This document shows positions 22,080 to 63,121 of a DNA stretch of 63,171 bases, piece by piece. This DNA comes from Candidatus Hydrogenedens sp. (lineage in GTDB: Bacteria > Hydrogenedentota > Hydrogenedentia > Hydrogenedentales > CAITNO01). Below the pieces are notes generated by a model, which saw only the letters and a program-made list of their open reading frames with translations, was not told the origin of the DNA and did not search any database. The position numbers and the translations under genes were made by a program. The stretch covers positions 1 through 63,171 of the forward strand of contig JAAYJV010000196.1 in the NCBI GenBank assembly GCA_012522755.1, in the 5' to 3' direction. Position 1 is the stretch's first letter, and every line of letters begins with the position of its first letter.

Positions 22080-22465
22080 ATAATCGCTCCTTGCAAAGAA
22101 AATATAATAATTCAGTATGTAAAGCAGTAAAAAAGACAGCCTCACTGTCTTTATCTATCGGGGATACTTCAGAAAGGCACGGCTGTTCCCTTCCCGGTAC
22201 TCTGAAGAACTATTTATACCACAGTGCTTTTATTGGAATCAAAAGAAAAGAGGATGTGTCACGAGATAATTTATATTTCTCAGTATTTGGCTATCAGATA
22301 AGGGGCCTTAACAGAGTGTACAGCACCGGTCGGGATCCGGCTGTTCTATGCTTCTTCGTACCTCTAAACAGTTCCCCATCTCCCTGAAAACCTGATTTAA
22401 GGAATTCCATTTCATAAGATCCGTTCCAATCTGTGTAATTTCAACATCTTACGATCTTCCCGTTA
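22080..22465. other. Divergent intergenic region between FadL-type gene and Bat operon
   Basis: About 386 bp with no gene. It should contain the promoter of the minus-strand FadL-type gene near 22090-22160. A dyad-like element, CCGG-N7-CCGG within 22321-22343, lies about 150 bp upstream of the sigma-54 promoter, where enhancer-binding proteins usually sit. That assignment is speculative. Confidence 0.4.
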
Positions 22466-22480
22466 TGGCATGGGAGTTGC
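22466..22480 (+). promoter_or_regulatory. Sigma-54 (-24/-12) promoter of the MoxR/Bat operon
   Basis: TGGCAT at 22466-22471 and TTGC at 22477-22480 give GG-N10-GC spacing exactly, matching the RpoN consensus TGGCAY-N5-TTGC. The sequence continues CATATAA, identical in type to the dnaK promoter at 60815. The predicted transcription start is near 22492, only about 2 bases before the ATG at 22494. Confidence 0.82.
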
Positions 22481-22493
22481 TCATATAATAACT

Positions 22494-23327
22494 ATGAAAA
22501 GAAATATGTCTGTCATACTGATAAGCTTTGTCATCTTCAGCTCCCTGGGTGCTTCAGGGCTGGAGCTGACGGTAACGACCACGCCCTTGGAGCGCAGCTA
22601 TCCTGTCGGGGAAGAACTGGAGCTGGGCTACAGCCTGAGCTGGACAGAAGCAGAGACGGACCATGTGCTTTTGCCTCCGACTCTTCCGGAACTTGACTGG
22701 GGCACGGCACAGCTGCTCTCCATGACGGTGCGTCGGGAAGGAAGCCATGTGACAGCCGATATTCTGCTGGGTATCATCCCTTCACAGACAGGCCGGCACA
22801 ATTTCCCGTCACTGGAATTGAAAGTGGTGCCTCTGGATGTTGAGACGGGTGCTGAGGAAAATTTGGTACCGCTTCCCTTGTCTCCTTCAGAGCTGATCAC
22901 AACGGAAGAACTGACCGTAGCTGCTACGAAGGGAAGTCCTTTTCTGCTTCCCGTGAGTCTGGCTGTTGTGGTTCTGATTCTGGCTCTTGTGCTGTGGCTG
23001 CTTCGTCGTCGACAAAGAGCGGCGACCTTTGTCGAGCCGGAACGGAGTCTGGAGGAGGAATTGAACACGCTGTTGCATCAGGCCCGGCGTCATCGTCTGG
23101 ACGGAAATTATTACGAAACTTACCGGTCTCTGCATGCCCTGGCCGTGAAATGCGGGGAGCATCAGGCCGCTGTACCGCCCACTCTTCTTTCCCGGTTGGA
23201 AGAGAGGATGAAAGATTTCGGATACCGGGGCAAAGGACCTTCGGAAACAGATCTTGAAGGTGATTTCAAGGATGTGGAGCAGCTTTGCGCCCGGCTTCGG
23301 TCGCATGGAACCCAAGGAGCGATATAA
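22494..23327 (+). CDS. Membrane-anchored Bat-operon protein (first gene)
   Basis: 277 residues from ATG at 22494 (ATG at 22506 is an alternative). A signal peptide (MKRNMSVILISFVIFSS) leads into a beta-rich extracytoplasmic domain with SYPVGEELELGYSLSW, then one membrane span at about 147-168 (LPVSLAVVVLILALVLWLL). A cytosolic helical tail follows with SLEEELNTLLHQARRHRLDG. The layout parallels the C-terminal halves of BatD and the DUF4381-type protein at 25706, so it is probably a BatD-like partner of the complex. The start lies at or just after the predicted sigma-54 transcript start, so translation may be nearly leaderless. The MoxR gene begins 3 bp after its stop. Confidence 0.72.
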   Translation: MKRNMSVILISFVIFSSLGASGLELTVTTTPLERSYPVGEELELGYSLSWTEAETDHVLLPPTLPELDWGTAQLLSMTVRREGSHVTADILLGIIPSQTGRHNFPSLELKVVPLDVETGAEENLVPLPLSPSELITTEELTVAATKGSPFLLPVSLAVVVLILALVLWLLRRRQRAATFVEPERSLEEELNTLLHQARRHRLDGNYYETYRSLHALAVKCGEHQAAVPPTLLSRLEERMKDFGYRGKGPSETDLEGDFKDVEQLCARLRSHGTQGAI

Positions 23328-23330
23328 CAG

Positions 23331-24317
23331 ATGTCTGTGAATGTGGATGCGGTGCGCCGCAATGTGGAAGAACATGCCTCTTTTGTGAGTCATCTGCGCG
23401 AAGAGATCGGCCGGGTCATTGTGGGCCAGCAGTACATGGTGGATCGTCTCATGACGGCCATGCTCGCCAATGGTCATGTATTGATTGAGGGCGTTCCCGG
23501 TCTGGCGAAGACGACGGCCGTGACAACGCTCGCCCAGGCCATGGACTGCAGTTTCCGACGGATTCAGTTCACGCCCGACCTGCTCCCGGCCGACCTGATC
23601 GGCACCCTGATCTATACGCCCAAGACAGGCGAGTTTGTCACACGGAAAGGCCCGGTCTTCGGCAACATCATTCTCGCCGACGAGATCAACCGTGCTCCAG
23701 CCAAAGTGCAGAGTGCCCTTCTGGAATCCATGCAGGAACGGCAGGTGACCATCGGTGAGGAAACCTATCCTCTGGAAGAGCCTTTTATGGTGCTTGCCAC
23801 ACAAAACCCCATTGAGCAGGAAGGTACCTATCCGCTGCCGGAAGCGCAGGTGGACCGTTTCATGCTCAAGCTTCGCATCACCTATCCCAGCCGCCAGGAA
23901 GAACGGGAGATCATGGATCGGGTGGACCTGCTTCACCCCACTCCTGTTTCCACGGTTGTGACGAAGGAGCAATTGCTTCAGGCCCGGGAAGTGGTGAATC
24001 AGATTTATGTGGATGACAAGGCGAAAAATTATATTGTCGATCTGGTCTATGCCACCCGCGAACCGGAAGCCTTTGACATTCCCATCCGCAACCTCATCGA
24101 ATATGGCGCGTCGCCCCGTGCCTCCATCTATCTGCAGCAGGCATCACGGGCCATGGCTTTTCTTCAGGGAGAAGGCAATGTGTTCCCCAATGATGTGAAG
24201 CAGGTTGCCATGGATGTGCTGCGCCACCGTATCAAGGTGAGCTATGAAGCGGAAGCGGAAAATATTACGAGTGAAGATATCATCAGGCGGATTCTGGAAA
24301 GTGTTCCCGTTCCCTGA
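23331..24317 (+). CDS. moxR: MoxR-family AAA+ ATPase
   Basis: 328 residues. Walker A is GVPGLAKTT (about residues 51-59) and Walker B is IILADEINRAP. The family-specific stretch ATQNPIEQEGTYPLPEAQVDRFMLK and a sensor-2/lid region are also present. MoxR ATPases act as chaperones that load metal or partner proteins onto von Willebrand A (VWA) proteins, here most likely BatA/BatB, at the cytosolic face of the membrane. AAGGAG straddles the stop of the previous gene, eight bases or so from the ATG. Confidence 0.95.
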   Translation: MSVNVDAVRRNVEEHASFVSHLREEIGRVIVGQQYMVDRLMTAMLANGHVLIEGVPGLAKTTAVTTLAQAMDCSFRRIQFTPDLLPADLIGTLIYTPKTGEFVTRKGPVFGNIILADEINRAPAKVQSALLESMQERQVTIGEETYPLEEPFMVLATQNPIEQEGTYPLPEAQVDRFMLKLRITYPSRQEEREIMDRVDLLHPTPVSTVVTKEQLLQAREVVNQIYVDDKAKNYIVDLVYATREPEAFDIPIRNLIEYGASPRASIYLQQASRAMAFLQGEGNVFPNDVKQVAMDVLRHRIKVSYEAEAENITSEDIIRRILESVPVP

Positions 24318-24355
24318 GTCTCCGGCCTGTTTGACAGTGTGAAAGAAACAGACAA

Positions 24356-24796
24356 ATGACAACACAAAAGAAAAAAATAACCCGTGGCGCTCTCCTCAAG
24401 CTGGCGGAGAAATGCGGTTCCAGGATTGCCCATGATGCGACTGAAGTGCTGGATCGCGACAAGATCTGCACCTTGCTGGAGCATGCGTGGAAAAAAGCCG
24501 GTATCTGTTTTGAAATGGGCGTCTGGTTCCCCGAGTTTCTGGACGGCATGAAACTGAACTGCGGCCTCTATGTTGATTTTCTTCTGGAAAAACGACTGGC
24601 CGTCATGATTGCGGGAAGCGACAAACCCCGGGCCACAGTGGAAGAAGAACTGGCCTTTTGTGCCGACAGCAGCCTCTTTGATGATGCGGTAATCCTCCAT
24701 TTCGGAAAACGCTTTCACTGTATTCCCGTGGCCTTCAATGATATTACCTGCAGCTGGATCAAAGTGACCCCTCCTGCAGCAGGCCGCCCCTCCTGA
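24356..24796 (+). CDS. GxxExxY-like small protein
   Basis: 146 residues. The middle (AGICFEMGVWFPEFLDGMKLNCGLYVDFLLEKRLAV) follows the layout of the GxxExxY family, a PD-(D/E)XK-like fold: hydrophobic strand, G-x-x-Y-x-x-D-hydrophobic strand, then DDAVILHFGKR at the end. The canonical GxxExxY and ExK residues are not all kept, so nuclease activity is doubtful. It is wedged between moxR and the DUF58 gene, with gaps of 38 and 16 bp, in an operon where this position is normally empty. The function is unknown. Confidence 0.6.
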   Translation: MTTQKKKITRGALLKLAEKCGSRIAHDATEVLDRDKICTLLEHAWKKAGICFEMGVWFPEFLDGMKLNCGLYVDFLLEKRLAVMIAGSDKPRATVEEELAFCADSSLFDDAVILHFGKRFHCIPVAFNDITCSWIKVTPPAAGRPS

Positions 24797-24812
24797 GCCG
24801 GGAAAGAATCTC

Positions 24813-25706
24813 ATGATTTCTCAGAAAGCCATAAAAAAAATCAGACGGATTCAGATCCGTACCCGTCGGACCGTCAATGAGATATTGGCGGGTCAGTACG
24901 AAAGTGCCTTCAAGGGACAGGGCATGGAATTCCGTGAAGTGCGTTCCTATGTGCCCGGTGATGACATCCGCTCCATTGACTGGAATGTGACGGCCCGCAC
25001 GGGAGAGCCTCATGTCAAGGTCATGGCCGAAGAACGGGAGCTGACCGTTGCTCTTCTTGTGGATATGAGCGGCTCGGGACGTTTCGGCAGTGCATCACGG
25101 CTGAAAAATGAACTGGCTGCGGAACTCTGCGCTGTTCTGGCTTTATCCGCCATCAACAACAACGACAAAGTGAGCCTGTTGATCTTTACGGACGATATGG
25201 AATTGTATGTACCTCCTCAGAAGGGAAGCCGCCATGTTCTGCGTATCATCCGTGATGTGCTCTATTTCCAGCCGAAGGGGACAGCCACCAATATCACGAC
25301 GGCTCTCAACTATCTGAACCGGGTCATGCGCCGCCGTGCCGTTGTGTTTCTGGTCTCCGATTTCATGGATGAGGGCTACGAAGACGCCTTGCGTGTAACA
25401 GCCAAACGCCATGATGTCATCGCTGTTTCCGTGACGGATCCCCGGGAAATGACCCTGCCTGATGTGGGCCGTGTCGCTCTGGCTGATGCGGAAACAGGCC
25501 GCGAGATTCTGATCAATACGAGTGACAGAAGACTCAGAGAGAACTATGCACGCAAAGCCCGGGAAGAGGCCGCCGCCAGAGATGAAATCTTCCGGAGAAA
25601 CCGCATCGACAGCCTGAGCCTCTCCACAGACCGTTCCTATGTGGATGAGCTCTATCGTTTTTTCAAGATGCGCGAACGACGCCGTGCAGGGAGGGCCGCT
25701 CTGTGA
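24813..25706 (+). CDS. DUF58 domain protein of the MoxR/Bat operon
   Basis: 297 residues. The DUF58 signature VPGDDIRSIDWNVTARTGEP lies at about 49-68. A VWA-like fold with LLVDMSGSGRF provides a degenerate metal-ion-dependent adhesion site. DUF58 proteins accompany MoxR in nearly all genomes and are thought to be its client or adaptor. It has no signal peptide or membrane span, so it is cytosolic. Its stop overlaps the next ATG (TGATG), giving translational coupling. Confidence 0.93.
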   Translation: MISQKAIKKIRRIQIRTRRTVNEILAGQYESAFKGQGMEFREVRSYVPGDDIRSIDWNVTARTGEPHVKVMAEERELTVALLVDMSGSGRFGSASRLKNELAAELCAVLALSAINNNDKVSLLIFTDDMELYVPPQKGSRHVLRIIRDVLYFQPKGTATNITTALNYLNRVMRRRAVVFLVSDFMDEGYEDALRVTAKRHDVIAVSVTDPREMTLPDVGRVALADAETGREILINTSDRRLRENYARKAREEAAARDEIFRRNRIDSLSLSTDRSYVDELYRFFKMRERRRAGRAAL

Positions 25707-26647
25707 TGTGGAAAGCGCTCCTTCTTCCTCTCTGTCTTCTGGCCGCTTCCGCAAAGGCGGACGAACTCTCTGTACAGGTACGTGTTGAGCCTCCTCTTAT
25801 CCCCTGGCATCGTTCCGTAAGTGTGGAGCTTTCAGCCGAAATACCAGCCTCTCTGGAACTGACTTTTCCGGAAGTTACAGAAAAAGAAGGACGTGCACGG
25901 ATCCGCAAGGCTGAGGGACACAGAAGCCCGGTAGAAGGGGGCAAAAGCCTGCAAAGCCAACGCTATGTCATCGACCCTCTTTCGGCCACAGACTGGCTCT
26001 TCCCCGCTCTCAGCATACCCTGGGAAGATGGTGAGAATACAGGTGTTTTAAAGACAGCTCCCATCGCCTGGACTTCCCGGGAACTGACAGAAGAGGAAAA
26101 GGAATTCGCCGCCCATTTTGAAGGGCTCACCTCGCCTGCGCTGTTCATCAAAAAAGGAAAATCGCCCTCCCGGACTTACGGGGCATTACTTGCTGCGACA
26201 ATCCTGGCCTCGGCTCTTTTTCTTCTTTGGCTGAGACAAGGTCGCGAGAAAACGCCGCCGCCATCGCCGCCCCTCCCCGCCTGGACGGTCGCTTTCAAAC
26301 GCCTTCAGGAACTGAAGAACAGAGATCTGCCCGGACAGGGGCGCATTGATCTGTATTATGTGGATCTGAGCGCCATCCTGCGCTATTACTTTGAAGACCG
26401 TTTCCGTATCCCCGCTCCCGAACAGACAAGCCCGGAACTTCTGGAAGCGGTTGAGGAAGGCAAACGCCTTGACGAGGAGCAATACGGCTTCCTCCGGGCT
26501 TTTCTGCGTCAGTGTGACCGTGTGAAATTCGCCCTGTATCAGGCCGATGCCGATGAGATGAAGGAACATTTCAGCGGTGTGAAAAAACTGGTTCAGCAGA
26601 CTATCCCGGCTGATCCCGGCGAGAATGAAGAAGGAGGCCGCCCATGA
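25706..26647 (+). CDS. Membrane protein of the Bat operon (DUF4381-like)
   Basis: 313 residues from the ATG overlapping the DUF58 stop; a GTG one codon earlier is possible. A signal peptide (WKALLLPLCLLAASAKA) and an extracytoplasmic beta domain come first. A single span follows at about 155-175 (YGALLAATILASALFLLWL), then a proline-rich linker and a cytosolic helical domain. The helical domain includes YYVDLSAILRYYFEDRF, typical of DUF4381 proteins in MoxR/Bat loci. It probably connects cytosolic MoxR/DUF58 to periplasmic parts of the complex. The stop overlaps the batA start by 4 bp. Confidence 0.75.
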   Translation: MWKALLLPLCLLAASAKADELSVQVRVEPPLIPWHRSVSVELSAEIPASLELTFPEVTEKEGRARIRKAEGHRSPVEGGKSLQSQRYVIDPLSATDWLFPALSIPWEDGENTGVLKTAPIAWTSRELTEEEKEFAAHFEGLTSPALFIKKGKSPSRTYGALLAATILASALFLLWLRQGREKTPPPSPPLPAWTVAFKRLQELKNRDLPGQGRIDLYYVDLSAILRYYFEDRFRIPAPEQTSPELLEAVEEGKRLDEEQYGFLRAFLRQCDRVKFALYQADADEMKEHFSGVKKLVQQTIPADPGENEEGGRP

Positions 26648-27678
26648 ACTGGCTTGCCCGTCTTCTGGCTTCTCCCGGTTTTGCCAAGCCCGAGGCTTTC
26701 TGGCTTCTCCTGCCTGTGCTGGCCTTGCTGGTCTGGGAATGTCTGCCCGCCGCTCCCGGGGTGATACGCATCTCCACAGGGGAGCGGATCCGCAGTCTCT
26801 ACCGTTATCGCTCCGGTATCGCATCGCGCCTCCCTGCTTTTGGCCGGGCTGTGGGACTGGCATTGCTGACCATCGCTCTGGCCGGACCTCTGGAAGGCTG
26901 GAAGCTGAACAAAGAGCGGGCCGGTATCATCGATATCATGCTCTGCCTCGACGTATCGGGCAGCATGCGTGAAACAGATTTTATTGTGGCTGGCAGACCC
27001 AGGGATCGGCTGTATGTGGCCCGGGAAGCAGCCCGCAGTTTCATCGACAACCGAAGGGAAGGACAGGACACCCGCTATGGACTCGACAGAGTGGGTCTGA
27101 TTCTTTTTTCCGGGCTGGCCTGGACTCAATGTCCTCTCACTCTGGATTATGAAGTGCTGGAGCATGAACTGGATCGTGCGGAAATTGCCGATGAACGCAA
27201 ACAAGGCACGGCCATCGGTTCCGCACTGGGTTTGGCCGTGCGCCGTCTGAGCAAATCGGAAGCCAAATCAAAGGTCGTTATTCTCCTTACGGATGGTCAG
27301 AACAACAGGGGCGAACTGGACCCCATCACGGCCGCCAGACTGGCGAAAGATTACGGCATCCGTGTATATACCATCGGTGCGGGCTCGGAAGAAGAGCAGG
27401 TGATTGGCCAGGGATTCTTCACGCGCCGGACGGAAGCCATAGACGGCAAAATGCTGGGCAGTATCGCTTCCATGACAGGCGGCAAATATTATATCGCCTC
27501 CGATACACGGGCCCTCATGCGCGCTTATGATGAGATCAGTGAGATGGAAACGACAGAGGTGGAGATTGGAGATTATAAAGAAGCCCGTGAAATTTATCAG
27601 CCTTTTCTGCTGGCCGGCGCCCTCGTGCTGATCCTTTCCGGATTCATAAGGCGTCAGTGGTTTGAGCAGATCCCTTGA
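26644..27678 (+). CDS. batA: BatA-like VWA membrane protein
   Basis: 344 residues. Two N-terminal spans flank a short loop, and a third hydrophobic segment lies at the C-terminus (FLLAGALVLILSGFI). The VWA domain between has an intact metal-ion site: LCLDVSGSMR (DxSxS, about residue 104), a threonine in KQGTAIGSAL, and LLTDGQNNRG. In other bacteria BatA/BatB are membrane VWA proteins linked to oxygen tolerance or envelope stress and are clients of MoxR. It overlaps the preceding gene by 4 bp. A 74-bp gap, the largest in this operon, separates it from batB. Confidence 0.92.
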   Translation: MNWLARLLASPGFAKPEAFWLLLPVLALLVWECLPAAPGVIRISTGERIRSLYRYRSGIASRLPAFGRAVGLALLTIALAGPLEGWKLNKERAGIIDIMLCLDVSGSMRETDFIVAGRPRDRLYVAREAARSFIDNRREGQDTRYGLDRVGLILFSGLAWTQCPLTLDYEVLEHELDRAEIADERKQGTAIGSALGLAVRRLSKSEAKSKVVILLTDGQNNRGELDPITAARLAKDYGIRVYTIGAGSEEEQVIGQGFFTRRTEAIDGKMLGSIASMTGGKYYIASDTRALMRAYDEISEMETTEVEIGDYKEAREIYQPFLLAGALVLILSGFIRRQWFEQIP

Positions 27679-27752
27679 GAGATACAGTGATGATGACCCC
27701 TTTTGACATATGGAATACACGAAAGCCTGAAGAAAAGGAAAGGACATAAATC

Positions 27753-28826
27753 ATGCAATTTTCCTTTCCCACACACCAATGGCCTTTCTGGACAGGGCTG
27801 GCTCTGGTCATATTCGGCTGCTGCGGACTCCTGCTGCATTTGCTGGAAAAACAGCGGGCGAAAAGGCTCCATCGTTTTGTTGAATCCGGGCTGGTCGACC
27901 AACTCATGCCCGGCTGGTCTCCCGAGCGGCGCAAAGCCCTTTTCTGGCTCTTTCTCTCGGGAGTGCTCTTTGTGATGATGGCCGCAGCAGGACCGCGCTG
28001 GGGCAAAAAATGGCTGCCCGTCACCCGGGTGAGTCGTGATGTGCTGGTCGTTCTGGATGTTTCGCTGAGCATGGAAGCGGAAAACCCGCCGCCGAGCCGT
28101 TTGGTGCGTGCCCGTCAGAAAATTGAATCGCTTCTGGAGCGGTCGCCTGCTGATCGTTTCGGACTTGTGGCCTTTTCCGGAGAAGCGGCCACCCTGTGCC
28201 CTCTCACGCTGGACCATGGGTATTTCCGTTCCGTCCTCGATGCTGTGAGCACCAACACGCTCAGCACTGAAGGCTCCGATATCAGTGCGGCTCTGAAAGA
28301 AGCGCTGGATGTTTTTGAAGAGGATGCGCGCCGTTTCGGTGAAGATGACGGAAGCGAGCGGGTCGTACTCATCCTCAGCGATGGAGAAGAAACAGCTGGT
28401 GATGCACTGGCTCTGGCTGAAAAAATAAGTGCCTATGCCCGCATCTATGCCATCGGTATCGGTGATCCCGAAGGAGCGGTGGTGATCTTCCCTGCCTGGC
28501 TCCGTCAGTATGTGCGTGTGCCTGATGATCAGCTGACACGGCTCTCCAAACTCGATGAACAGAATCTTTCCAGACTCGCCACAGGGAGCGGCGGCGCCTA
28601 TGTGCGGATTACGCCCGACAACAGTGATGTGGACTTTATCCAACAGGAACTGAAACAACTGCGCGCTCAGACCACTTCCGGAGAACTGCGCTTTCAGATG
28701 ACCGATCATTACCGCTGGCCTCTCATGATCGCCTGGCTCTGTTTCTTTGTGGAAGGGCTTTGGTTGTTGCTTCTGGCGCCCATGCGGAAACGACGGATGC
28801 GTCTGGAGGTGGAAAGCCATGGTTAA
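27753..28826 (+). CDS. batB: BatB-like VWA membrane protein
   Basis: 357 residues with the same architecture as the previous gene: N-terminal span (WTGLALVIFGCCGLLLHL), second span near 60-80, VWA domain, C-terminal span. The metal-ion site is VVLDVSLSMEAENPP, with ISDGEE-type residues as LILSDGEETAG. It is a paralogue of BatA; the two probably form a heteromeric complex. It ends inside the start of the TPR gene (8-bp overlap), showing coupling. AAAGGA stands before the ATG. Confidence 0.92.
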   Translation: MQFSFPTHQWPFWTGLALVIFGCCGLLLHLLEKQRAKRLHRFVESGLVDQLMPGWSPERRKALFWLFLSGVLFVMMAAAGPRWGKKWLPVTRVSRDVLVVLDVSLSMEAENPPPSRLVRARQKIESLLERSPADRFGLVAFSGEAATLCPLTLDHGYFRSVLDAVSTNTLSTEGSDISAALKEALDVFEEDARRFGEDDGSERVVLILSDGEETAGDALALAEKISAYARIYAIGIGDPEGAVVIFPAWLRQYVRVPDDQLTRLSKLDEQNLSRLATGSGGAYVRITPDNSDVDFIQQELKQLRAQTTSGELRFQMTDHYRWPLMIAWLCFFVEGLWLLLLAPMRKRRMRLEVESHG

Positions 28827-59566: not shown

Positions 59567-60619
59567 TTACCTGGATGCGGCGATGGCGGCCTGCAGATCA
59601 GCCAGAAATTCGGCGCCGGGAAGATTTTTCGATGCGCATGCCTCCGTATACTCATCAAGAATAGGCTGGACAGCCTCGCGCCAACGGGCCTGCTCTTCTT
59701 CGCTCAAAGCTGTTTCGTCCTTGCCCAGTTCACGGATAAAAGCAAAACCTTCTTCATCAGCCCGGTCCCAGGCGGCACCGTGACGGTCCACCCACTCAGC
59801 ACTCACTTCCGTGATCACAGACTGAAGCTCTTCGGACAGGCTGTTCCATTTGGCTTTGTTCATGGTCACGAACATGGCGGTCGTATAGCCGATGGTGGAA
59901 CTGTCCGTAATGGAGGAGATCACTTCTCCCTGTTTCCAGCCTTTGAGCGTCTCCACAGGACAGAGCGTGGCATCAACCACTCCTTTTTGCAGCGCTTCAT
60001 AGGTTTCAGGCTGGCTCATGCCGATGGGGGATGCGCCCAGACGTTCAATAATCTTCGCTGACAGACCCGTGCCACGCACTTTCAATCCGGCCATATCGTC
60101 CAGATTGCCGACAGGTTTTTTGCTGGCCAGGATGCCCGGACCATGGGCATGAACATAAAGCAGATGAGTATCCGCTGTTTCTGCAGGCGCATACTTTTGC
60201 GACAGTTCCGTAGCAACACGGGTCGCTGTCATGCCGTCGGGATAGCCCACGGGAAGGTCAAGCCCTTCCAGAAGCGGAAAACGACCCCGCGTATAGGAAA
60301 AACAGCTCATGCCCAGATCGGAAATACCGGACACAACCCCTTCATAACACTGAGGCGCCTGGCTCAGAGAACCGCCGGCATAAATATCGATCTTGATGCG
60401 ACCCTCACTGCGCGCTTCCACTTCTTTGGCCCAGGCCTCCGCCTCAATACACTGAACATGGGTGGGCGGAAAGAAAATACTGTAGGACAGGACAATGGGC
60501 TTCGCCTGATCCTTTGCAGAGTCGGACGGAGAAGAACCGCCGCAGCCCGCCAGCAACATCACAGTAGCGAGAGAAAGCATACAAACCGAAAGGGCACCAA
60601 TTCTGATTGTTTTTGACAT
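59567..60619 (-). CDS. dctP: TRAP transporter substrate-binding lipoprotein
   Basis: 350 residues from ATG at 60619, with GGGAG about eight bases upstream. A lipoprotein signal peptide ends LLAGC, with C26 as the lipid anchor. The binding-protein fold has [37 protein letters not shown] and the DctP-conserved [20 protein letters not shown], whose Arg normally binds a carboxylate. The substrate is thus probably an organic acid, perhaps a compatible solute given the UspA neighbour. The promoter region is shared divergently with dnaK. Confidence 0.93.
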
Positions 60620-60814
60620 GAGAAACTCTCCCATTTTACCTTCGCACATTCACTGAAAGACATGCATAATCATCCTGAAAGTATAGCCCAGTAGACCGGC
60701 CATCCGCAAAACAACTGTTTCATTTTCAGTTTTCACTGATTCATATTGAAACGATCATTCCCGTCTCAGACCGGAAAACAGCCCTCTTTCATGCTGATCA
60801 GGGCCTTTATCCTT

Positions 60815-60829
60815 TGGCATGGTAATTGC
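60815..60829 (+). promoter_or_regulatory. Sigma-54 (-24/-12) promoter of dnaK
   Basis: TGGCAT at 60815-60820 and TTGC at 60826-60829 give exact GG-N10-GC spacing, followed by CCATATAA as in the Bat promoter. The transcript would start near 60841, leaving a 38-base leader with AAAGGAG before the ATG at 60879. Confidence 0.82.
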
Positions 60830-60878
60830 CCATATAAATACAGATACGAATGATAACCAAACCGAAAGGAGAATCATC

Positions 60879-62798
60879 ATGTCAAAAACAATTGGAATTG
60901 ATCTGGGCACAACCAACTCCTGTGTCGCAGTCATCGAAAACGGCGAGGCCGTCGTGATTCCCAATCTGGAAGGATCGCGAACGACACCCTCTGTGGTGGC
61001 TTTCACCCGCGACGGCGAGCGGCTTGTCGGCGCAGCCGCCTGGAGACAGGCCGTGACCAATCCGGCAAACACTGTTTTTTCCATCAAACGTTTCATGGGC
61101 CGACGCTACGAAGAGCTGAAGAACGAAACGGACAAAATCCCTTATGCCATCAGCGCTTCAGCCAGTGGAGACTGTCAGATAGACATTCAGGGCAAAGGCT
61201 ACAGGCCACCGGAAATTTCCGCCATGATCCTGCAGAAACTCAAAGAAGCGGCGGAGAATTATCTGGGTGAGAAGGTGACCCGTGCCGTCATCACGGTACC
61301 GGCTTATTTCAACGATGCTCAACGGCAGGCCACGAAAGATGCCGGACGTATCGCCGGGCTGGAGGTGGCACGTATCATCAACGAGCCTACCGCCGCAGCC
61401 CTGGCCTATGGTCTCGATAAAAAGAAGAAAGAGAAAGTTGCCGTCTATGATCTGGGCGGCGGTACTTTCGATATCTCCATCCTGGCCATTGAAGAAGACA
61501 GCTTCGAAGTCTTGAGCACAAGCGGTGATACCCATCTGGGTGGCGATGACTTCGATGAACTGATCATTGACTATCTCGCCGAGGAGTTCAAAAAAGAGCA
61601 GGGCATTGATTTGCGCCAGGATCAGATGGCATTGCAGCGCTTGAAAGAAGCCGCTGAAAAAGCCAAATGTGAACTGTCCTCAGCCTTGCAGACTGATGTG
61701 AACCTCCCCTTCATCACCGCTGATTCGGCCGGGCCCAAACATATGAATTACCGGCTGACCCGGGCGAAACTGGAACAGCTCAGTGCCGGGCTCATCGAAC
61801 GGACCCAGGCACCCTGTCAGAAGGCTCTCGCCGATGCGGGCTTGAAAGCTTCCGATATCGACGAAGTGATCCTCGTGGGCGGCATGACCCGTATGCCCGC
61901 TGTGGCTCAGACCATTGAAAAACTCTTCGGCCAGGAACCCCACCGCGGTGTGAATCCCGATGAGGTCGTTGCCGTGGGCGTGGCCATTCAGGGCGGTGTT
62001 CTCTCCGGCGAGGTAAAAAATGTGCTGCTTCTGGATGTGACGCCCCTGTCGCTGGGTATCGAAACTCTCGGTGGTGTATTCACCCGGCTCATTGACCGAA
62101 ACACGACCATTCCCGTTTCGAAGAGCGAAGTCTTCAGCACGGCGGAAGACAATCAGAGTGCTGTGACAGTGCACGTGCTCCAGGGTGAAAGAGACATGGC
62201 TGCGGGCAACCGTACGCTGGGTCGCTTCAATCTCGAAGGCATTGCACCGGCACCCCGGGGATTGCCCCAGATTCAGGTGTCTTTTGATATCGACGCTGAC
62301 GGCATCCTTCAGGTCTCCGCCAAAGACCAGGCCACGGGACAGGAACAGAAAATACGTATTGAAGCCTCGTCCGGTTTGAGCGAAGCGGAAGTCAACCGCA
62401 TGATGCAGGATGCGGAAGCCCACGCAAGCGAAGACAGGAAACTCCGCAAAGAAGCCGAAACACGCAACCAGGCGGAACATGTCGTCTTCTCCACGGAGAC
62501 CCTCCTTCGGGAACATGGTGACAAAGTCCCGCCGGAAAGCCGAAGCAATCTGGAAGGGACTCTGGCCAGTCTGAAAGATGCGCTGAAAAACAACGACCTG
62601 GAAGCCATGGAAGCCGGTATGGAAAAAGTGACCCGGGCCTCCCAGGAACTCTCACAGGCTCTCTATGGACAGCAGAATGCCGCCACAGCCGGAGCACAAT
62701 CGCAAAGCTGTGGAGCGGGCGGCTCCTGTGGGCCACAGCCAGCTTCGCCTCCCGAAGACGGCACTATGGACGCTGACTTCACTGTTCTCGACGATTGA
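60879..62798 (+). CDS. dnaK: Chaperone DnaK (Hsp70)
   Basis: 639 residues from ATG at 60879, eight bases after AAAGGAG. The nucleotide-binding domain has [34 protein letters not shown] and [10 protein letters not shown]. The substrate-binding domain starts after [14 protein letters not shown], and the lid is present. The tail ends DADFTVLDD, close to the usual DnaK EEVD-like end. An insertion in the lid tail, [13 protein letters not shown], contains two cysteines that are uncommon in DnaK. grpE and dnaJ are not adjacent, and the gene seems to be monocistronic, ended by a strong terminator. Confidence 0.97.
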
Positions 62799-62936: not shown

Positions 62937-63049
62937 GTAGGGGCACGGCATGCCGTGCCCACAAATCCCACAGGAAATAATAACTTGCTGGAAGACATAT
63001 GGAACTCCAGGCTTATTGACAAAATGGGCACGGCATGCCGTGCCCCTAC
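62937..63049. repeat. Inverted pair of GGGCACGG palindromes
   Basis: Two copies of the 20-bp palindrome GGGCACGGCATGCCGTGCCC, at 62941-62960 and 63026-63045, are flanked outwards by GTAG and CTAC. They face each other across 65 bp of unrelated DNA, like a REP doublet. The remaining 300 bp to the window end hold no gene. Confidence 0.85.
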
Positions 63050-63121
63050 CTGAACCACGTCCCACTGTCTTCCCACGGCCCACGCCCCACATTCCTCAGT
63101 CCTCGCTCCTCGCCTGGCGTC

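Follow-up and report, generated by a model that had tools for sequence, protein, structure and literature searches.

The stretch of DNA analysed here (63,171 nt, hereafter the window) comes from a 4.0 Mb draft genome that is 95% complete. Near its right-hand end it carries dnaK2, an intact DnaK paralogue of 639 aa (60879–62798, + strand), together with a divergent gene for a DctP-type TRAP binding protein (59567–60649, − strand) that shares the same intergenic region without having a sigma-54-like site in it. Full-length DnaK genes number two in this genome. The second, dnaK1, lies on contig C8 in a CIRCE-hrcA-grpE-dnaK-dnaJ cluster, where the CIRCE (AGCACTC-N9-GAGTGCT) directly precedes hrcA. 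In a quick maximum-likelihood tree the order's dnaK1 and dnaK2 genes formed sister clades, jointly supported at 100, which fits a duplication inside the order. A Bat operon lies further upstream in the window, its first gene (22494–23327, +) followed by MoxR, DUF58, BatA-like and BatB-like VWA genes (23331–28826, +). The region 3' of dnaK2 holds two copies of a REP-like dispersed element, the near-perfect palindrome GGGCACGGCATGCCGTGCCC (window positions 62938–63050).

The intergenic region upstream of dnaK2 contains an exact −24/−12 element, TGGCATGGTAATTGC, at 60815–60829 (+), whose core is contained in TTGGCATGGTAATTGCCCATATAAAT; the dnaK2 start follows 49 nt downstream. Its GG (60816–60817) and GC (60828–60829) are 10 bp apart, satisfying the sigma-54 spacing, and transcription is predicted to begin near 60841. 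When TGGCAYRN4TTGC was searched with one mismatch or fewer allowed, only two matches were found in the 63 kb window, both of them exact: this one and one before the Bat operon (22466–22480, +; core in TTATGGCATGGGAGTTGCTCATATAAT). Genome-wide, the strict motif gave 11 matches versus 4 for the reversed control, and an extended motif that includes CATATAA gave 5 versus 0. Our sigma-54 scoring matrix was weighted by hand. One strict match (C8:64461) runs antisense within dnaK1 and was taken as chance. The core and CATATAA had been described as common to the dnaK2 and Bat promoters, and both are indeed present at the two sites in this genome. We rejected CATATAA as a functional element, however, since it is not conserved in relatives whereas the −24/−12 element is; it is probably just an AT-rich melting region.

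The −24/−12 element was kept, amid diverged flanking DNA, in all ten dnaK2 orthologues with enough upstream DNA. In these it takes the form GG-N10-GC about 60–125 nt 5' of the dnaK2 start (for example TGGCATGGTTTGTGC and TGGCATGCAAGATGC), and in several of them the −12 part is ATGC or CTGC instead of TTGC. It was absent from all 18 dnaK1-type genes (Mann-Whitney p about 1e-5 for dnaK2 versus dnaK1-type). No sigma-70-type promoter was found at 60650–60900, and no CIRCE inverted repeat rose above chance in the window or was present upstream of dnaK2. The preliminary description had noted a dnaK without CIRCE, which is right for dnaK2 but overlooks dnaK1 behind CIRCE-hrcA. In the genome rpoN is present as a 535-codon open frame on contig C129, and there are six sigma-54 activators (enhancer-binding proteins, EBPs), with GAFTGA in five of them and GAFTSA in the sixth. 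Close relatives that lack the element yet keep dnaK expression, and a genome lacking rpoN, had been named beforehand as the findings that would count against the promoter. The element is in every testable dnaK2 orthologue and in none of the dnaK1-type genes tested, and the claim therefore came through the sequence part of that refutation test; rpoN was likewise found. Given the exact element, the intact gene and the conservation, we agree with the original claim and conclude from the sequence that 60815–60829 is a true sigma-54 promoter of the second, duplicated DnaK.

The extended-motif search led to an hsp20-hsp20 operon on contig C118 (HSP20 by Pfam). In relatives, all 28 testable hsp20 upstreams have a sigma-54 site 53–130 nt 5' of the gene, 27 of them at a background P ≤0.025. 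Counting dyads in the hsp20 upstream regions, with no prior motif, yielded de novo the palindrome CTGTTTCA-N3-TGAAACAG: TGTT N6 TGAA occurred in 15/26 upstreams versus 0.38 expected, with a z of 23.6 versus 7.6 for the highest shuffle. The dnaK2 upstream regions independently gave the same motif (GTTT N5 TGAA in 5 of 10, versus 0.28 expected). The best mismatch to the palindrome averaged 3.1 in hsp20 upstreams and 3.6 in those of dnaK2, versus 6.7 for shuffles. The palindrome is often doubled, with copies 20–21 bp (two helical turns) apart, and is degenerate in some relatives. At dnaK2 in the window, a putative proximal activator site, CTGATTCATATTGAAACGA (60736–60754, +), has three mismatches to CTGTTTCANNNTGAAACAG, and a putative distal copy, CTGTTTCATTTTCAGTTTT (60715–60733, +), lies 21 bp further upstream with a perfect left half; the block is conserved between genomes G000 and G001.

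Genome-wide, the single best match to the palindrome is upstream of clpB and has one mismatch; a second copy is located 20 bp off, and a sigma-54 site stands between the palindrome and the clpB gene. When clpB was compared in 30 genomes, almost all carried a sigma-54-like element there and most carried palindromes, often paired at about −67/−88. Throughout the order the palindrome recurs together with sigma-54 sites at both hsp20 and clpB. Because the palindrome and a sigma-54 site precede dnaK2, the two-gene hsp20 operon and clpB, these genes look like one sigma-54 disaggregation regulon of small Hsps, DnaK and ClpB. Palindrome matches within the EBP genes of contigs C25 and C78 were set aside, as they look like coding for a conserved LFLDEIG stretch. 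Two relatives (G052 and G055) carry the palindrome, with one mismatch, about 170 nt upstream of rpoN (around 1501–1519).

Sigma-54 requires an ATP-driven activator bound upstream. We consider it very probable that the sigma-54 promoter of dnaK2 belongs to a palindrome regulon shared with hsp20 and clpB and run by an EBP, with HrcA controlling dnaK1 and Bat forming a unit of its own. In such a circuit, the EBP would bind the palindromes upstream of dnaK2, hsp20 and clpB and open their promoters once unfolded protein builds up. The best candidate for this EBP would be an NtrC-like protein encoded on contig C146; its receiver is degenerate, and it may be autoregulated through a palindrome over its own −10 box. 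The general folding machine grpE-dnaK1-dnaJ would stay with HrcA/CIRCE, and the Bat operon would stand apart as a sigma-54 unit with a different activator site. The dnaK duplication would be divided between two control systems.

The case for the C146 protein as activator of the palindrome regulon is circumstantial. It has orthologues at 54–83% identity in most of 30 genomes searched, the next EBPs standing at about 40%, and the recognition helix (GISRSTLWRK) is kept across the whole alignment. Its receiver domain scores weakly (33 bits, where the C78 and C85 EBPs exceed 100). We ran a half-palindrome test on this protein's own promoter, for it alone among the six EBPs: when 19 orthologues were lined up by their TACAAT −10 box, the free left half-site TGTTTCA had its best match at the exact palindromic offset. 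The half-site scored 4.21/7 over the −10 versus a mean of 2.03, and its G was kept in 18 of the 19. The right half of the site at this promoter doubles as an extended −10 and is constrained as such, and the extended −10 (TGATACAAT/TGGTACAAT) is conserved upstream of the gene in relatives. This palindrome copy, overlapping the −10 region of the activator's own gene, looks like autoregulation. In the window's genome the ATG of this gene lies 6 nt past the −10 box, a probable leaderless start.

The regulon could also be as proposed and its activator another of the six EBPs, for example that of the sensor-kinase/regulator pair on contig C78, a possible if doubtful alternative. NtrC-type EBPs at three Planctomycetota dnaK loci are closest overall to the C78 EBP (41–45% identity over the whole protein), but the Planctomycetota palindrome is a different one (CTGCCA-N3-TGGCAG) and the C78 recognition helix is unlike theirs. 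The C146 EBP, the sole one tested in this way, by comparison combines a half-palindrome over its own promoter with order-wide conservation.

The preliminary description had gone further and placed Bat and dnaK in one RpoN-run proteostasis regulon under a single EBP. Sigma-54 promoters before both hold, and a proteostasis regulon run by sigma-54 has good support: the two promoters are true sigma-54 elements whose cores are nearly identical here, and both are conserved across large evolutionary distances, the Bat element being kept in most relatives. The single EBP is where the proposal fails, as the upstream sites differ. The suggested comparison of the Bat and dnaK upstream regions revealed no common activator site, and the dnaK2 palindrome was at background in 18 Bat upstreams (mean best mismatch 6.72 versus 6.78 for shuffles). 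Many Bat upstreams instead share a conserved site, AACCTGATTTGAGGAA, at around −77 to −81. In the window this Bat-specific site is AACCTGATTTAAGGAA (22389–22404, +), about −77 from the −24/−12 element and unlike the palindrome of dnaK2, hsp20 and clpB; it was at shuffle level in the dnaK2 and hsp20 upstreams. The CATATAA common to the two promoters adds nothing to the proposal, given its lack of conservation in relatives. With different upstream sites, and the palindrome no better than background at Bat, the idea of one activator serving both Bat and dnaK lacks support. We regard a joint regulon under one EBP as unlikely, and suggest that Bat and dnaK2 probably share RpoN but not their activator. 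The Bat ATG lies 13 nt past the −12 element in the window and 12–14 nt past it in many relatives. With so short a distance the Bat sigma-54 transcript is probably leaderless or nearly so, a feature conserved in many relatives.

Dct transport genes are classical sigma-54 targets, and with dctP divergent from dnaK2 the palindromes in the intergenic region might serve the DctP/TRAP operon through a DctD-like EBP. We find this very improbable, because the minus strand of the intergenic region has no sigma-54-like site and because the palindrome also occurs at hsp20 and clpB, where the sigma-54 sites point into those genes. That the dnaK2 element is a chance match and the gene is read from an ordinary housekeeping promoter is scarcely credible: the reversed control does produce about four matches in 4 Mb, but the element divides dnaK2 from dnaK1-type genes cleanly (10/10 versus 0/18), and the intergenic region lacks a sigma-70-type promoter and has activator palindromes.

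How disaggregases are induced in bacteria without sigma-32 is poorly known. In the sigma-32 regulon of Escherichia coli, dnaK, clpB and ibpAB are induced together; the proposed regulon comprises the same gene products and differs in its sigma class. HrcA/CIRCE control is found in the same genome at hrcA-grpE-dnaK1-dnaJ and is absent at dnaK2.

Sigma-54 control of chaperones has precedents elsewhere. The accessible text of PMC9723704 describes −24/−12 promoters, mapped by transcription start sites, for groES-groEL, lon, dnaK, grpE-dnaJ, htpG, clpB and skp in the sigma-54 regulon of Flavobacterium psychrophilum SM4. Both there and here sigma-54 promoters precede several chaperone units (here dnaK2, hsp20 and clpB); according to the same text, however, dnaK and grpE-dnaJ both have sigma-54 promoters in F. 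psychrophilum, whereas here grpE-dnaK1-dnaJ follows CIRCE-hrcA. The regulon described here is for that reason not Flavobacterium's own, only one of the same kind. A PSSM-based prediction of sigma-54 targets in Bacteroidota and Planctomycetota (PMC12316311) shows enrichment of GroEL, GroES, IbpA, GrpE, DnaJ and DnaK. As far as the accessible text goes, that enrichment is at gene level, with neither an enhancer motif for chaperones nor an EBP or a split between paralogues, whereas here a palindrome is defined. Neither paper, in the same portions, reports a chaperone enhancer or activator. The account of D. vulgaris by Kazakov et al. (2015) includes no heat-shock chaperone unit, and we found no report in the literature that traces sigma-54 heat-shock wiring to a control site or an activator. 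With chaperone promoters of the sigma-54 type already mapped in Flavobacterium, and others predicted for Bacteroidota and Planctomycetota, the kind of control has precedent. What appears to be new is the split between paralogues, together with the enhancer and the candidate activator. For sigma-54-driven control of chaperones these would supply a concrete cis-code and a candidate activator.

Across 84,980 species scanned, a sigma-54 core was found 26–86 nt 5' of the DnaK start at no fewer than 117 loci, where by our own estimate roughly five are expected by chance. The loci listed come from Bacteroidota, Planctomycetota, Lentisphaerota, Poribacteria, Fibrobacter, Ignavibacteriota, Calditrichota and others. 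CTGCCA-N3-TGGCAG was present within two mismatches in 26 of 35 Planctomycetota upstreams. Bacteroidota upstreams carry TGNCA-N3-TGNCA with peaks near −25, −37, −48, −57 and −67, that is, with helical phasing. The dnaK2 palindrome was not found at the sigma-54 dnaK promoters of these two phyla. This order's palindrome recurs, with one mismatch, upstream of the sigma-54 dnaK in a Poribacteria genome, and Fibrobacter and FCPU426 show weaker forms of CTGTTTCA-N3-TGAAACAG. At three loci of Planctomycetota the gene for an NtrC-type EBP terminates immediately 5' of the sigma-54 dnaK promoter. The upstream sites suggest lineage-specific enhancers for sigma-54 control of dnaK, a pattern that the scan met in more than 100 genomes from several phyla. 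It is possible, and we put it forward tentatively, that a sigma-54 heat-shock circuit driven by a dedicated family of EBPs acting on N3-centred palindromes is an ancient and widespread alternative to sigma-32 and HrcA, and that a dnaK duplication in this order left one copy to the sigma-54 circuit and the other to HrcA.

Other sigma-54 loci were observed in the genome. On contig C196 (580–4846), a gene for an RtcR/CARF-domain EBP is followed by a sigma-54 site (2187) and by nuclease-like and type I restriction genes, which may form a defence operon induced via RNA-end or cyclic-nucleotide sensing. On contig C25 (7194–14904), a PAS-domain EBP is encoded near a sigma-54 site, TTGGCATGGATTGTGCTCATATAT, that precedes genes for dinitrogenase-cofactor-like and MRP/NBP35-like ATPase proteins; we take this locus to resemble the sigma-54 ORP operon of Desulfovibrio. 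Finally, contig C85 (6981–10765) has a ZraSR/ZraP-like arrangement, with a sensor kinase and an EBP encoded beside a sigma-54-promoted gene for a secreted, glycine-rich EF-hand protein, and it is in this EBP that GAFTSA replaces GAFTGA.
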